From Nostoc sp. B(2019) (GTDB lineage Bacteria; Cyanobacteriota; Cyanobacteriia; Cyanobacteriales; Nostocaceae): a stretch of 52,878 nt of DNA. Of the stretch, positions 24,112-29,713 are shown piece after piece (positions within the stretch are counted from its first letter, which is position 1; each line of letters begins with the position of its first letter). The notes below the pieces were generated by a model, which did not search any database, had not been told where the DNA came from, and saw only the letters and a program-made list of their open reading frames with translations. Location of the stretch: positions 1 through 52,878 of the forward strand of contig NZ_WVID01000037.1 in assembly GCF_010091925.1 (NCBI RefSeq), written 5' to 3'. The position numbers and the translations under genes were made by a program.

Positions 24112-24149
24112 AGTTCTCAAGACAGGATATAGCAACGGCAAGGGGAACG

Positions 24150-24373
24150 TCAGCAACCCCGCTCTAAAGAGACGGGGCTTCAGGCGTAAGCCTTATAGCC
24201 CTAGCTGACCAGACTATCCGTTTAAGGCAAGAGTTAAAGACCCATTTCAGGATGCTTGCTAGTCCTGAACTCTGGAACCGAACGATTAAACAGGCTTATG
24301 GGTTGAACCAGTGTCGTTTGGATAGTACCGACCCTAAACATTGTCGAAGCAAACATTACTTTATTGAGCAGAA
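24150..24373 (+). ncRNA. HEARO / omega-RNA-like region upstream of a broken iscB
   Basis: The 220 bp directly before an IscB start codon carry a strong hairpin (CCCCG-CTCT ... AGAG-A-CGGGG at 24157-24177), the segment GGCGTAAGCC, and further paired stretches, in the position where IscB loci encode their HEARO/omega RNA. In active systems this RNA guides the IscB nuclease and its 5' end comes from the transposon edge. Position and hairpin are seen directly; membership of the HEARO family is inference and would need a covariance-model match. The protein partner is truncated here. Confidence 0.55.
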
Positions 24374-26132: not shown

Positions 26133-26476
26133 CTAAAATGCGCTCCGTGCGATCACTATCCTCTAAGAAACTCTGTGCTGGACAAACATATACTACAAAT
26201 GTAATATTAATATTAATCTCAATTATAAATACTACAAACATTCAATGATCAGCAGATTCCCCTCAACCATTAGTAGCGCGGTGCATTGCCAACCCAACAA
26301 GGGTTTAGGCAGAGTCATCGTACTGTTTGCGTTTGAGGGAATATATTGCTTTGTCGGCGGTAAATCTGCAAGTAAAGGCATTTTTGGAGCAATTGCCACA
26401 TGGCTGAATCTAGACCAATTTATCCAAAGCGGGAGGTGCACATGTCTCACAGCACCGACATAGTACAGAAAGTATC

Positions 26477-26573: not shown

Positions 26574-27110
26574 ATGGAAGCTCAGCAGCAGAGCCAGCAA
26601 CCACACATATTACAAAATTCGGTGGTGGTGTTCTCCAAGAACTACTTACCACTGGCACGCATCAATATCAAACGAGCAATCGTGCTGTTAGTCACAGGTC
26701 AGGCAGAATCTTTGAATTTTGGTACTACAAAGCAGTGGGAAGTTCGCTCTCCCAGTGTTGTACTACAAGTGCCTGAACACATTCGTTTGACAGTAGGTAA
26801 TCCTGAACGCCATTGGAAAGTACCTCCAGTCAATCGACGTGAGGTGTTAAAGCGTGATAGTCACATCTGCCAATACTGTGGTAGCACTAAGCATCTAACA
26901 CTTGACCATGTAATCCCCCGCTCGAAAGGTGGACAACACAGTTGGGACAACGTTGTAACTGCGTGTGAGAAGTGTAACTCAATTAAGAGCGATCGCCTCC
27001 CACATGAAGCGGGAATGGTACTGAAAAACAAGCCCAAAGCTCCAATTCACCCAGCAGTTGCGTTTGCTGAACAATTTTGGAATATGCAACGCCTGAGTGA
27101 AAGCGAGTAA
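26574..27110 (+). CDS. HNH endonuclease next to the tRNA array
   Basis: The 178-residue protein has an N-terminal domain (NYLPLARINIKRAIVLLVTG) common to this cyanobacterial HNH group, then CQYCG (Cys99/Cys102), LTLDHVIPRSKGG with Asp111-His112, an Asn in DNVVTAC, and CEKCN (Cys131/Cys134), giving a zinc-stabilised HNH fold. It is complete. It ends 200 bp before the tRNA array; it could be a mobility nuclease that travels with the array, though that is only inferred from position. Confidence 0.87.
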   Translation: MEAQQQSQQPHILQNSVVVFSKNYLPLARINIKRAIVLLVTGQAESLNFGTTKQWEVRSPSVVLQVPEHIRLTVGNPERHWKVPPVNRREVLKRDSHICQYCGSTKHLTLDHVIPRSKGGQHSWDNVVTACEKCNSIKSDRLPHEAGMVLKNKPKAPIHPAVAFAEQFWNMQRLSESE

Positions 27111-27196
27111 TTTACTCCAACTCTAATCAGAGAGAGCAATACAACCATTAGATAACCTTGCTCTCTCACTTCTTTGAAAAAGTTTGTAGTATGCCC

Positions 27197-27225
27197 TTGA
27201 CACTTTGTAATACATTATGTAGTAT
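27197..27225 (+). promoter_or_regulatory. Near-consensus promoter of the tRNA array
   Basis: TTGACA (27197-27202) and TAGTAT (27220-27225) are separated by 17 bp, a near-perfect housekeeping sigma promoter. The first tRNA starts 84 bp after the -10 box. The word GTAGTA occurs three times around it (27186, 27219, 27230) and could be a regulator site. Confidence 0.75.
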
Positions 27226-27308
27226 AAACGTAGTAAAGCACTACAGCCTCTCAAAAAGGCATAGCGCAAACACTTCTGAACCATGAAAACTAAATAATTG
27301 CCATACTT

Positions 27309-27383
27309 GGGGGTGTAACTCAGTTGGTTAAGAGTGCCTGTCTGTCGAACAGGAAGCCGCGAGTTCGAGTCTCGTCATCCCCG
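27309..27383 (+). tRNA. tRNA-Asp (GTC)
   Basis: Acceptor GGGGGTG pairs CATCCCC; anticodon stem CCTGT/ACAGG with loop CTGTCGA gives GTC. G discriminator. It is the first gene of the array. Confidence 0.9.
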
Positions 27384-27386
27384 TGT

Positions 27387-27463
27387 AGCCTTGTGGACGA
27401 ATAGATAAGTCGTTCTGATTCTCAGTCAGAAAGAAGCGGGTGCAACTCCCGTCAAGGCTTCCA
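27387..27463 (+). tRNA. tRNA-Glu (CTC)
   Basis: Acceptor AGCCTTG pairs CAAGGCT; loop TTCTCAG gives anticodon CTC. The T-loop reads TGCAACT instead of TTCAACT. CCA is encoded. Confidence 0.75.
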
Positions 27464-27468
27464 AATGT

Positions 27469-27544
27469 GTCCAGGTCGCCAAGTGGGAAGGCGTTGGTCT
27501 GCAAAACCGACTATGCGAGAGTTCGATTCTCTCCCTGGACTCCA
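27469..27544 (+). tRNA. tRNA-Cys (GCA)
   Basis: Acceptor GTCCAGG pairs CCTGGAC; loop CTGCAAA gives GCA. T discriminator and encoded CCA. Confidence 0.9.
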
Positions 27545-27549
27545 AGCAT

Positions 27550-27624
27550 TGCAGCGTCACCTAACGGCAAGGTACTCGGCTCATAACCGAGCATATACGG
27601 GTTCAACTCCCGTCGCTGCTACCA
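27550..27624 (+). tRNA. tRNA-Met (CAT), elongator or Ile-type
   Basis: Anticodon stem CTCGG/CCGAG with loop CTCATAA gives CAT. The acceptor pairs TGCAGCG with CGCTGCT, with one mismatch at the first pair. CCA is encoded. One of three CAT tRNAs in the array. Confidence 0.85.
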
Positions 27625-27633
27625 AATGCCAAA

Positions 27634-27730
27634 TGCACAGATGGTGTAACGGCAGCACCAGGGTCTCCAAAACCTTTGGTCAGTATACCCTTCGGGAAGG
27701 CTTCGCCAACAAATCCAAGTCTTTGGCGTT
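27634..27730 (+). pseudogene. tRNA-Trp (CCA), interrupted
   Basis: The 5' half is good: D stem GGTG/CACC, and anticodon stem AGGGT/ACCTT with loop CTCCAAA (anticodon CCA). After it comes a short palindromic repeat (27687-27709) and then no convincing T-arm or acceptor partner for TGCACAG. Probably inactive. Confidence 0.6.
27687..27709. repeat. Short dispersed repeat inside tRNA-Trp
   Basis: ACCCTTCGGGAAGGCTTCGC is a palindromic element of the kind scattered in Nostoc genomes; a related form is at 26477. Confidence 0.6.
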
Positions 27731-27753
27731 GTCGTGTCCTGACCGAAAAAGCT

Positions 27754-27824
<71 letters not shown>

Positions 27825-27855
27825 CAACAGCTTTTTCAACTTACATGGCACACAT

Positions 27856-27932
27856 GGTGCAGAAGCGAAGTGGCCGAGCGGCACGTCTTTCAAGCGTGTA
27901 ATTAGCAGGTTCAAGTCCCGTCTGCACTACCA
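27856..27932 (+). tRNA. tRNA-Glu (TTC)
   Basis: Acceptor GGTGCAG pairs CTGCACT; anticodon stem CACGT/GCGTG with loop CTTTCAA gives TTC. CCA is encoded. Second Glu gene of the array. Confidence 0.8.
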
Positions 27933-27939
27933 AATTTAT

Positions 27940-28021
27940 GGGTCGGCTCGCCTATTGGTGTAGGTAACTGTCTGTAAAACAGCCGCGTTCAGTATTGCTG
28001 GTTCAATTCCAGCCCGACCCA
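27940..28021 (+). tRNA. tRNA-Tyr (GTA)
   Basis: Acceptor GGGTCGG pairs CCGACCC; loop CTGTAAA gives GTA. A long variable arm is present as expected for class II tRNA-Tyr. Confidence 0.88.
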
Positions 28022-28023
28022 TA

Positions 28024-28093
28024 GCGGGATAGAGTAGTGGTCACTCACAAGTCTCATAAGCTTGTCTAGGAAGGTTCGATTCCTTCTCCCGCA
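28024..28093 (+). tRNA. tRNA with CAT anticodon (Met or Ile2)
   Basis: Acceptor GCGGGAT pairs CTCCCGC with one mismatch; anticodon stem CAAGT/GCTTG with loop CTCATAA gives CAT. It lacks initiator features, so it is an elongator Met or a lysidine-type Ile tRNA. Confidence 0.8.
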
Positions 28094-28099
28094 TCTGGT

Positions 28100-28189
28100 G
28101 GAGAGGTGGCTGAGTGGCTCAAAGCGTCCTCCTGCTAAGAGGAAACGGGTTTTTAAAGCCCGTCGCAGGTTCAAATCCTGTCCTCTCCG
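28100..28189 (+). tRNA. tRNA-Ser (GCT)
   Basis: Acceptor GGAGAGG pairs CCTCTCC; loop CTGCTAA gives GCT; the long variable arm (ACGGG ... CCCGT) fits class II. Confidence 0.92.
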
Positions 28190-28193
28190 TTCT

Positions 28194-28267
28194 GAGAACG
28201 TGGTGTAACTGGATTGCATCTCAGATTACGAACCTGAAGGTTGAGGGTTCAAGTCCCTCCGTTCTCG
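28194..28267 (+). tRNA. tRNA-Arg (ACG)
   Basis: Acceptor GAGAACG pairs CGTTCTC; loop TTACGAA gives ACG, with one A-C mismatch closing the loop. Confidence 0.85.
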
Positions 28268-28273
28268 CCTTAT

Positions 28274-28371
28274 CCCCTGGTAGCTCAGTTGGTAGTAGCG
28301 CCTGTCTGTTCGCGTAGCGTCTCCGATAGGAGAAGAACAGGAGGTCATCCGTTCAATCCGGATCTGGGGGA
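28274..28371 (+). tRNA. Interrupted tRNA, probably tRNA-Phe (GAA)
   Basis: Acceptor CCCCTGG pairs CTGGGGG, D and T arms are intact (ATCCG TTCAATC CGGAT), and the anticodon stem is CCTGT/ACAGG. The loop is 31 nt instead of 7 because a 24-nt repeat is inserted. Removing it can leave CTGAAGA, anticodon GAA, which with A73 fits tRNA-Phe, the only amino acid otherwise missing from the array; other placements would give GTT (Asn) or GTA (Tyr). It is dead unless the insert is removed after transcription. Confidence 0.6.
28308..28333. repeat. Short dispersed repeat in an anticodon loop
   Basis: TTCGCGTAGCGTCTCCGATA followed by GGAG contains the hairpin TCTCC/GGAGA and matches a repeat type common in Nostoc and Anabaena genomes. 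It sits inside the tRNA at 28274. Confidence 0.75.
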
Positions 28372-28380
28372 CTGGCATAT

Positions 28381-28456
28381 TGCCTTGTAGCTCAGTGGTA
28401 GTAGCAGTCGCCTGTTAAGCGAACGGTCGCAGGTTCGATCCCTGCCGAGGCAGCCA
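28381..28456 (+). tRNA. tRNA-Asn (GTT)
   Basis: Acceptor TGCCTTG pairs CGAGGCA; loop CTGTTAA gives GTT; G discriminator and encoded CCA. The outermost anticodon-stem pair is a mismatch. Confidence 0.85.
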
Positions 28457-28461
28457 TTTAT

Positions 28462-28537
28462 TGCAGGGTGGACGATTGGCAAGTCGCCTTGACTCTGAAT
28501 CAAGGAGAGGTTGGTTCAACCCCAACTCCTGCATCCA
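28462..28537 (+). tRNA. tRNA-Gln (CTG)
   Basis: Acceptor TGCAGGG pairs TCCTGCA; anticodon stem CTTGA/TCAAG with loop CTCTGAA gives CTG. CCA is encoded. Confidence 0.88.
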
Positions 28538-28545
28538 AATTTTAT

Positions 28546-28622
28546 TGGGAAGTAGGCAAATAGGCAAAGCCGTCGCACTTTGAATGCGAAGTTTGAAGGT
28601 TCGATTCCTTCCTTCCCAGCCA
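28546..28622 (+). tRNA. tRNA-Gln (TTG)
   Basis: Acceptor TGGGAAG pairs CTTCCCA; stem TCGCA/TGCGA with loop CTTTGAA gives TTG. G discriminator and encoded CCA. Confidence 0.9.
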
Positions 28623-28627
28623 TTCAT

Positions 28628-28705
28628 GCTCCTGTAGCCCAATTGGAAGAGGCGGCTGTCTCAAAAACAGTCTGTGTGTGGGTTCAAATCCCACCGGGAG
28701 TACCA
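28628..28705 (+). tRNA. tRNA with Leu anticodon (CAA) but short variable arm
   Basis: Acceptor GCTCCTG pairs CGGGAGT; stem GCTGT/ACAGT with loop CTCAAAA gives CAA, a Leu anticodon. The variable region is only about 6 nt, whereas bacterial tRNA-Leu has a long class II arm. A discriminator and CCA are present. Its true charging identity is uncertain. Confidence 0.7.
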
Positions 28706-28706
28706 A

Positions 28707-28780
28707 CGGGATGTGGCGCAACTTGGTAGCGCGGCAGCTTTGGGAGCTGAAGGTTGTAGGTTCAAATCCTACCATTCCGA
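28707..28780 (+). tRNA. tRNA-Pro (TGG)
   Basis: Acceptor CGGGATG pairs CATTCCG; loop TTTGGGA gives TGG; A discriminator. Confidence 0.9.
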
Positions 28781-28786
28781 TCATTT

Positions 28787-28860
28787 GCCCTTGTGACGTA
28801 ATTGGAAACCGTCGCTCGTTTAGACCGAGTGTTTTGCAGGTTCAACTCCTGTCAGGGGTA
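28787..28860 (+). tRNA. tRNA with Leu anticodon (TAG) but short variable arm
   Basis: Acceptor GCCCTTG pairs CAGGGGT; D stem GACG/CGTC; stem GCTCG/CGAGT with loop TTTAGAC gives TAG, a Leu anticodon. Like the CAA tRNA at 28628 it lacks the class II variable arm. Confidence 0.7.
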
Positions 28861-28861
28861 T

Positions 28862-28939
28862 CGCGGAGATGGAGCTATGGTGCGCTCTGGGGTCTCATAA
28901 GCCTTCACATACCGGGTTCAAATCCCGGCTCCGCTACCA
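28862..28939 (+). tRNA. tRNA-fMet-like (CAT)
   Basis: Acceptor CGCGGAG against CTCCGCT leaves the first base unpaired (C1/T72), the hallmark of bacterial initiator tRNA, and the D arm GGAGC resembles initiators. Loop CTCATAA gives CAT. The anticodon stem is weak, with only two of the usual three G-C pairs. CCA is encoded. Confidence 0.75.
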
Positions 28940-28942
28940 AAT

Positions 28943-29016
28943 GCTGGTGTAGCTCAATGTGGCAGAGCGATCGCTTTGTAAGCGATGGGTTGCAGGTTCA
29001 ACCCCTGTCACCAGCT
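28943..29016 (+). tRNA. tRNA-Thr (TGT)
   Basis: Acceptor GCTGGTG pairs CACCAGC; stem ATCGC/GCGAT with loop TTTGTAA gives TGT. The stem forms a HIP1-like GCGATCGC in the DNA. Confidence 0.92.
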
Positions 29017-29024
29017 TGACTAAT

Positions 29025-29095
29025 GCGGGTGTGATGTAACGGCAGCATGGGACGTTTCCACCGTCTTCGTGCGAGTTCAAATCTCGCCGTCCGCT
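29025..29095 (+). tRNA. tRNA-Gly (TCC)
   Basis: Acceptor GCGGGTG pairs CGTCCGC with wobbles; stem GGACG/CGTCT with loop TTTCCAC gives TCC. Confidence 0.85.
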
Positions 29096-29104
29096 CTAAA
29101 ACTT

Positions 29105-29176
29105 GCGGGTGTGATGTAATCGGTAGCATCTGAGTGCGCCATACTCAGTGCGTGGGTTCAAGTCCCTCCACTCGCT
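29105..29176 (+). tRNA. tRNA-Gly (GCC) lacking U33
   Basis: Acceptor GCGGGTG pairs CACTCGC; stem TGAGT/ACTCA with loop GCGCCAT gives GCC, but position 33 is C instead of the near-universal U. Decoding may be impaired. Confidence 0.7.
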
Positions 29177-29181
29177 TGCGT

Positions 29182-29257
29182 AGTCCTGTAGCTCAATTGG
29201 TAGAGTGTCTTCCTTACAAGAAGAACGTTGCGGGTTCAATTCCTGCCAGGACTACCA
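29182..29257 (+). tRNA. tRNA-Val (TAC)
   Basis: Acceptor AGTCCTG pairs CAGGACT; stem TCTTC/GAAGA with loop CTTACAA gives TAC; CCA is encoded. Confidence 0.92.
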
Positions 29258-29263
29258 AATCTT

Positions 29264-29337
29264 GGGAGTGTAGCTCAATGGAATAGAGCTTCGAGTTTCT
29301 ACCTCGAAAGTTGTGGGTTCGAGTCCTACCACTCCCG
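29264..29337 (+). tRNA. tRNA-Arg (TCT)
   Basis: Acceptor GGGAGTG pairs CACTCCC; stem TCGAG/CTCGA with loop TTTCTAC gives TCT. Confidence 0.9.
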
Positions 29338-29350
29338 CCTAATAAATGTC

Positions 29351-29385
29351 TTGAATTTTGAATTTTGAATTTTGAATTTTGAATT
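29351..29385. repeat. Heptamer tandem repeat, 5 units
   Basis: The unit TTGAATT is repeated five times without change. It separates two tRNA genes and is the only sizeable spacer in the array. A shorter version of the same word is near 14578. Confidence 0.9.
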
Positions 29386-29390
29386 GTTAT

Positions 29391-29464
29391 GGGGTCATAG
29401 CTCAGTTGGCTAGAGCGCCTGCCTTGCAAGCAGGAGGTCATGGGTTCAAGTCCCATTGATTCCA
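29391..29464 (+). tRNA. tRNA-Ala (TGC)
   Basis: Acceptor GGGGTCA pairs TGATTCC with two wobbles; stem CCTGC/GCAGG with loop CTTGCAA gives TGC. Confidence 0.92.
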
Positions 29465-29469
29465 CTCTT

Positions 29470-29545
29470 GGTGTCTGAAGCCAAAGCGGTCGCGGCGCCC
29501 TTTTGTGGAACCAGTCATTAGGGAGTTCAAGCCTCCTCAGATACC
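29470..29545 (+). tRNA. tRNA-His (GTG), degenerate anticodon stem
   Basis: An extra 5' G and a C73 frame the acceptor GTGTCTG/CAGATAC, as in tRNA-His, and TTGTGGA supplies GTG. The anticodon stem pairs badly (CCCTT against ACCAG). The T arm is sound. It may be a pseudogene. Confidence 0.55.
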
Positions 29546-29553
29546 CCTTATAT

Positions 29554-29636
29554 GGAAGATGCCGCTAAATGGTTGGCAATCGGTCTTGAAAACCGGGGTG
29601 GGGTAATACCCAGGAGTTCGATTCTTCCATCTTCCG
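29554..29636 (+). tRNA. tRNA-Ser (TGA)
   Basis: Acceptor GGAAGAT pairs ATCTTCC; stem TCGGT/ACCGG with loop CTTGAAA gives TGA; a long variable arm is present. Confidence 0.9.
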
Positions 29637-29640
29637 CCTT

Positions 29641-29713
29641 CCACCTGAAGCCGACTCATTGAGGCGCTGTGCTGATAACACAGATACAGGAGGGGCAGTA
29701 CCTCTCAGGTGGA
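29641..29713 (+). tRNA. tRNA-Ile (GAT), degenerate T-loop
   Basis: Acceptor CCACCTG pairs CAGGTGG; stem CTGTG/CACAG with loop CTGATAA gives GAT. The T-loop lacks the TTC motif (GGCAGTA), so tertiary folding is doubtful. Last gene of the array. Confidence 0.7.

Follow-up and report, generated by a model that had tools for sequence, protein, structure and literature searches.

When a short repeat sits in the anticodon loop of a tRNA gene, has the gene been lost, or can the repeat be removed from the transcript as an intron is? This question is raised by a tRNA array in the window, namely the whole stretch of 52,878 nucleotides analysed here, whose contig is part of a draft 7.4-Mb Nostoc-type genome of 109 contigs. 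The features on which the discussion depends are as follows.

26574..27110, + strand, HNH endonuclease-like ORF, directly 5′ of the array
27185..27192, + strand, TGTAGTAT box; passages of PMC10272220 give this motif for the TrcR operator of the Anabaena trn operon
27218..27225, + strand, second TGTAGTAT box, 5′ of the first tRNA
27308..29713 (3′ end approximate), + strand, tRNA array of 28 slots by our own count, with 22 intact calls by ARAGORN
27634..~27728 (3′ end approximate), + strand, tRNA-Trp slot, interrupted and partly degraded
27687..27708, + strand, 22-nt two-hairpin element in the T-loop of the tRNA-Trp slot
28274..28372, + strand, interrupted tRNA-Phe(GAA), called by ARAGORN with introns allowed, with a 24-nt insert
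28309..28332, + strand, the 24-nt insert TTCGCGTAGCGTCTCCGATAGGAG, between G34 (28308) and A35 (28333)

At 28274-28372, ARAGORN without its intron option calls no tRNA, and Rfam at the gathering threshold has no tRNA match over the same positions. Once introns are allowed, ARAGORN calls tRNA-Phe(gaa), and the anticodon loop, counted between CCTGT and ACAGG, is 31 nt long, just as the preliminary description had read it. Its claim that removal of 24 nt restores GAA and thus a tRNA-Phe holds as well, because one contiguous removal gives GAA in a 7-nt loop, in four registers, within a tRNA body that is otherwise perfect. A few shifted placements of the insert are equivalent to the one listed above. 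Without the insert, the gene is 100% identical to the intact tRNA-Phe of another array. Intact tRNA-Phe genes are also present elsewhere in this genome, one on the chromosome (contig C65), from which the array gene differs in its T-arm and acceptor, and one in a second array (contig C44), so that the interrupted gene would be dispensable for reading Phe codons.

The preliminary description further held that Phe is the only amino acid missing from the array. This cannot be kept, since 22 nt at the T-loop interrupt the tRNA-Trp slot as well, which is the array's only one for Trp and gives no tRNA call even when the insert is taken out. The 18 amino acids other than Phe and Trp are covered according to our reading of the sequence. 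The slots that receive no ARAGORN call are those for Trp, Phe, a second Gly, His, Ser and Ile, recognized by Rfam, by intron-allowing ARAGORN or by eye; His, Ser(tga) and Ile(gat) genes are seen by eye near 29465-29713, where ARAGORN missed all three. A tRNA-Gly-like gene at 29105-29176, found by Rfam and not by ARAGORN, has a 9-nt anticodon loop by eye. In a tRNA-Ile(gat)-like gene at 29640-29713, the T-loop reads GGCAGTA by eye and the usual TTC is absent; a similar tRNA-Ile(gat)-like gene is the last one in the second array of this genome (L100, G000:C44:7000-11000), where tRNA-Phe is intact and the tRNA-Cys slot, as read from the sequence, has a T-loop insert.

Arrays related to that of the window are found on plasmids of Nostoc, Tolypothrix, Calothrix and Kovacikia (L010-L025), and in 10 of the 16 plasmid loci fetched an HNH endonuclease gene is annotated upstream of the array, a count of context that depends on the annotation. 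The window has six TGTAGTAT boxes against 1.65 expected by chance, and two further ones lie on the minus strand at 26190-26236, upstream of the HNH ORF. A HEARO RNA (RF02033) is located at 24149-24359, ~2.2 kb 5′ of the HNH-type ORF. Viral contigs gave no match to the array tRNA-Phe pattern, and in phage records the best place covers 8% of the array.

What is the insert? Together with its flank it makes a 27-nt sequence which occurs once in the window and in none of 100 shuffles. If two bases are left free, its 25-mer has nine copies in the genome including that of the window. None of the other eight is in a tRNA, all of them lying in copies of a single larger repeat, with flanks of the TG^AAGG type; the window copy sits in CTG^AAGA. 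The insert was rightly taken for a dispersed repeat of the Nostoc type. Comparison with orthologous arrays, which had been proposed as a check, does reveal the uninterrupted gene: between tRNA-Arg(acg) and tRNA-Asn(gtt), the loop is uninterrupted in 13 of 14 aligned plasmid arrays (L010-L023), one of the 13 (L020) having a degenerate stem and no tRNA-Phe call by ARAGORN. The remaining one, from Nostoc sp. MS1 (L021), carries an insert identical to that of the window, and the identical 24 nt are also present in FACHB-152 (L031) and 106C (L071). PA-18-2419 (L043) has a one-base variant, and the same tRNA-Phe holds a second insert in its T-loop. Could the insert be an accident of assembly, given that the window comes from a draft genome in 109 contigs? 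The chance of this is negligible, because an insert common to independent assemblies, among them the MS1 plasmid record titled complete sequence, is not such an accident. Filled and empty alleles can be compared in closely matching genes. The tRNA-Arg and tRNA-Phe genes of MS1 and of N. parmelioides FACHB-3921 (L030) are identical save the insert, and so are those of 106C and of Nostoc sp. T09 (L063). Thus, the insertion is exact and the site is empty in relatives. The insert is found with two upstream and two downstream haplotypes, of which the window has one of each, and such mixed haplotypes suggest either recombination through the gene or repeated insertion.

The same point of tRNA-Phe has been hit by other elements. 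Using a gapped pattern for array-type tRNA-Phe, 47 loci were collected from named genomes, and five of them are interrupted (L031, L043, L045, L048 and L071). Among 388 genomes of the order, the pattern gives 27 copies in 26 genomes, four of which are interrupted: that of the window genome and those of G026, G087 and G212. The latter three have elements of a different subfamily (22, 22 and 24 nt) at the same insertion point. Inserts which share the site but not the sequence of that in the window (type A) are here called types B, C and D; they come from an Aphanothece MAG (L045), from a Microcoleus vaginatus MAG (L048), whose sequence is the same as that of G087, and from G212 (L079). Judging from these sequences, the anticodon of tRNA-Phe appears to have been hit on at least two and probably on four separate occasions.

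Is it possible, then, that an interrupted tRNA is kept for some role other than decoding, for example as bait for nucleases that attack the anticodon or the T-loop, and that a single ancient insertion, maintained by selection on its hairpin, gave rise to types B, C and D? The insertion point is the same in all four types, and the hairpin persists in types B, C and D with altered bases. By an exact pattern, moreover, the TTGGCG-type element has 13 copies in G026 and one each in G087 and G212; since types C and D are thus without any other copy in their genomes, local hopping is not what these single copies suggest, and they speak against full independence of the insertions. However, congeners of G087 and G212 are uninterrupted, and the tRNA-Phe genes bearing types C and D are, apart from the insert, similar to others of the same genus, so that separate insertion is the better reading. 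Insertions are also spread over many kinds of tRNA, and the function is a supposition. We therefore regard a maintained non-decoding role as very improbable.

How general are such inserts among array tRNAs? For a survey, 235 slots without a tRNA call in 86 array loci were aligned to 981 distinct intact array tRNAs, and inserts were counted if they lie inside slots between called tRNAs and the slot is 85% or more identical to an intact tRNA, spacers not being counted. Five loci (L025, L026, L075, L087 and L098) were excluded as duplicates and L024, which has one tRNA only, was set aside; the survey still includes near-duplicate pairs of loci, and distinct sequences were counted to limit their effect. 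Types B and C (L045 and L048) were missed by this survey and are known from the gapped tRNA-Phe pattern. Interrupted tRNAs amount to 81 instances, spread over 34 of the 86 loci; they make up 67 distinct sequences, and in 57 of the 67 the insertion site is the T-loop. Some inserts are nested within one another. Elements in the T-loop often read CCC-TTC-GGG and then form another small hairpin; the insert of tRNA-Phe, read on the opposite strand, follows the same plan with TCTCC-TATC-GGAGA and CGC-TAC-GCG. Indeed, a parse into two tandem hairpins succeeds for 40 of 51 oriented inserts and, after shuffling of the letters, for 351 of 5100 sequences, under a parse rule of our own choice and with one 17-nt insert, probably not an element, among the 51; the architecture is thus common to these elements. 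In the anticodon stem of tRNA-Arg(tct), 25-27-nt inserts occur at nearly the same point in L018, L093 and L064.

T-loop inserts of the CCCTTCGGG class have 28 matches in 18 of the 388 genomes, and 25 of these matches are beside at least seven other tRNAs within the fetched stretch. In the genome of the window, the exact 21-nt pattern of the T-loop element has no copy. Three matches are not within an array stretch. One of them, L152 in G196, resembles a tRNA-Lys(ttt) gene that is complete but for its T-loop insert; another, L154 in G225, is a relative of L152 with an anticodon loop one base longer, and in both cases an array lies ~6.8 kb away in the contig. Looking in nearby stretches only, another tRNA-Lys(ttt) is called in L169 and none in L168. 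The third, L174, is a tRNA-like piece.

Do housekeeping tRNAs receive such inserts? The housekeeping tRNA-Phe pattern is present in 340 of the 388 genomes and, among the matches listed, all are of uninterrupted length. The same pattern with 10-40 extra nucleotides finds no interrupted gene in the 388 genomes, of which 340 are assessable, as compared with 4 interrupted among the 27 copies of the array type. A point on the other side, against silencing, is that in G212 (92% complete, 680 contigs) no housekeeping tRNA-Phe was found. As the housekeeping and T-loop patterns need exact matches, these counts are lower bounds. Among the genomes assessed, inserts are kept out of the housekeeping gene in the case of tRNA-Phe, and only likely so for other tRNAs, as L152 and L154 may be the sole tRNA-Lys(ttt) genes of their genomes.

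If interrupted genes are silent, they might be expected to decay, and here the evidence is mixed. Their identity to nearest relatives has a median of 0.956 (n=67) as compared with 0.987 (n=553) for intact tRNAs of the same arrays, a difference to which the insertion itself contributes one altered base; a flanking base is changed along with the insertion in types B-D and in almost every T-loop copy. ARAGORN recognizes 46 of the 67, with the anticodon expected, once the insert is taken out, so that most interrupted tRNAs are without visible degradation. No decay is seen in the tRNA-Phe of the window, which is otherwise perfect with GAA restorable, and decay hence gives no support for silencing in this case.

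Such a well-kept gene brings us to the second of the two options in the preliminary description, which were that the array has lost its Phe tRNA or that the transcript sheds the repeat in a new, intron-like way. How could a bacterium remove it? A nuclease might open the enlarged anticodon loop and the RNA ligase RtcB might join the halves without the 24 nt, to give a functional tRNA-Phe under stress. One contiguous excision indeed suffices for GAA in a 7-nt loop, in any of four registers. In the predicted fold, the insert lengthens the anticodon arm into a single longer stem with side hairpins, the folding as such being unexceptional (z -0.84). The genome encodes RtcB, a ligase able to seal tRNA halves, and in Anabaena TrcR represses both rtcB and the trn operon, as described in passages of PMC10272220, so that a cut-and-reseal route should not be dismissed outright. 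However, the other elements do not behave in this way. At the same point, types B, C and D cannot give GAA in any register, the anticodons obtained being TTA or ATA, GTA and GTT. Among T-loop alleles, one removal restores a 7-nt TTCRA loop in only 1 of 48 tested, with two skipped; a looser test, in which the 7-nt loop was not enforced, gave 18 of 50 and has been superseded as too permissive. Restorability is thus not a property of the element class. The absence of interrupted housekeeping tRNA-Phe among the 340 assessable of 388 genomes also argues against removal, as does the lack in this genome of any match to the EndA-type splicing endonuclease (PF01974); a control search over 14 genomes matched in the four archaea. 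An archaeal-type intron with a bulge-helix-bulge (BHB) motif was rejected on the same ground, PF01974 being the one splicing-endonuclease family searched. Taken together, removal from the RNA is very improbable, and of the two options it is the loss of the Phe tRNA from the array that is favoured, with a new intron left unsupported.

Our reading is therefore that a recent insertion of a Nostoc small dispersed repeat has silenced a dispensable tRNA-Phe of the array, and this is very likely. The events could be pictured as follows. A non-coding repeat of two tandem hairpins (~19-27 nt) would enter the anticodon of the array tRNA-Phe between G34 and A35, in reverse orientation relative to the T-loop copies. 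The transcript would retain the insert, and the tRNA-Phe made from it could not decode. The loss may be tolerated because the chromosome and the second array supply intact tRNA-Phe, and also because the array may normally be silent, as reported for Anabaena. Why should the element reach tRNA genes at all? Integration may prefer a T^C junction (G^A on the complement), which would be offered by the TTC of the T-loop and by that facing the GAA anticodon on the other strand. A target rule built on T^C or TTCRA alone proved only partly adequate. Intact array tRNAs contain 1484 TTCRA sites in the T-loop and 319 elsewhere, and 70 of the latter are in tRNA-Glu(ttc) and 66 in tRNA-Gln(ttg), neither of which has an insert outside the T-loop in the array survey; the target of type A in tRNA-Phe is TTCAG, which does not match TTCRA. 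The anticodon is thus hit in tRNA-Phe and spared in tRNA-Glu(ttc) and tRNA-Gln(ttg), despite similar motifs. Tentatively, and with considerable doubt, one may suppose that plasmid arrays are a preferred landing place and that two-hairpin elements of 19-27 nt are specific for TTC in a 7-nt hairpin loop, which would be the T-loop on one strand and the anticodon of tRNA-Phe on the other. If this specificity is true, integration would be guided by structure and probably single-stranded, and the elements would possibly be the smallest mobile elements known.

What would follow for tRNA arrays? If the insertions do silence their genes, stress arrays that are otherwise silent lose tRNAs at predictable nucleotides, and interrupted slots should be treated as probably dead when genes of an array are counted or when a decoding role is considered. 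The slots also provide a natural assay of how a 20-nt element chooses its site, because filled and empty alleles exist in matching backgrounds. Recurrent and position-specific targeting of array tRNAs seems to be new.

How does the locus compare with known systems? The trn operon on the delta plasmid of Anabaena PCC 7120 is described in passages of PMC10272220 as an array of 26 tRNAs with a TGTAGTAT operator, and the window likewise has a plasmid-type tRNA array with such an operator, in the form of two boxes upstream. A difference is that the words 'pseudogene' and 'insertion' are absent from the main text of PMC10272220, the Anabaena array being known here by description.

A second comparison is with the small dispersed repeats of Nostoc. 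SDR4, SDR5 and SDR6 of Nostoc punctiforme and its relatives, the subject of the 2008 work of Elhai et al. in Genome Res, are reportedly ~21-27 nt long, dispersed, precisely inserted, sometimes nested and built of hairpins, and the present insert resembles them in length, dispersed copies, precise insertion, nesting and hairpins. The 25-mer occurs nine times, eight of them outside tRNA; 40 of 51 inserts share the hairpin plan with varying stem sequences, as compensatory change would have it; and filled and empty alleles lie in matching arrays. A later paper from Elhai (PMC4390886) places SDR5, in the passage concerned, between nucleotides 3 and 4 of HIP1 GCGATCGC. Here the insert differs, SDR5 being in HIP1 (GCG^ATCGC) and the window insert in CTG^AAGA. 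Since its flanks and the TG^AAGG flanks of the other copies are not HIP1, we give the insert no SDR family name.

The third comparison is with inserts that have been called introns. For two adjacent chromosomal tRNA-like genes of this genome (L101, G000:C32:135400-135800), which have similar ~50-nt inserts in the anticodon arm, the motifs CTTGCCT, AAGGC and GAAGAAT of the first gene fit those that passages of PMC5733544 give for the 'group I introns' of Nostoc 7107 and Gloeocapsa. L174 seems related, and bears a T-loop insert in addition. In those passages, the paper (2017) reports 22-49-nt 'group I introns' in tRNA genes of Nostoc PCC 7524, Nostoc PCC 7107 and Gloeocapsa PCC 73106, including one at nucleotides 39-60 of tRNA-Arg(ACG) of PCC 7524, and, like the present insert, these are short and sit in the anticodon arm of a tRNA gene from a cyanobacterium. 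Could our inserts be tiny group I introns of this kind? The PCC 7524 insert appears to be that of L014, which lies in an array of the same family and starts with the same TTCGCGTAGCGT as the window insert, and cyanobacterial tRNA-Leu and tRNA-fMet genes are reported in the same source to have group I introns. However, Rfam at gathering thresholds has no intron match in the window, and a group I intron was rejected as a candidate there; inserts of this sort are two-hairpin repeats found at several places of tRNAs, in T-loops above all. A group I catalytic core does not fit in 22-24 nt. The probability of this explanation is accordingly close to nil. What was named a group I intron there is, by the present comparison, better described as insertion of a mobile repeat: on this evidence, the 22-nt insert of PCC 7524 would be a mobile repeat and not a group I intron, and if this is true, the published tiny group I introns in cyanobacterial tRNAs need revising.
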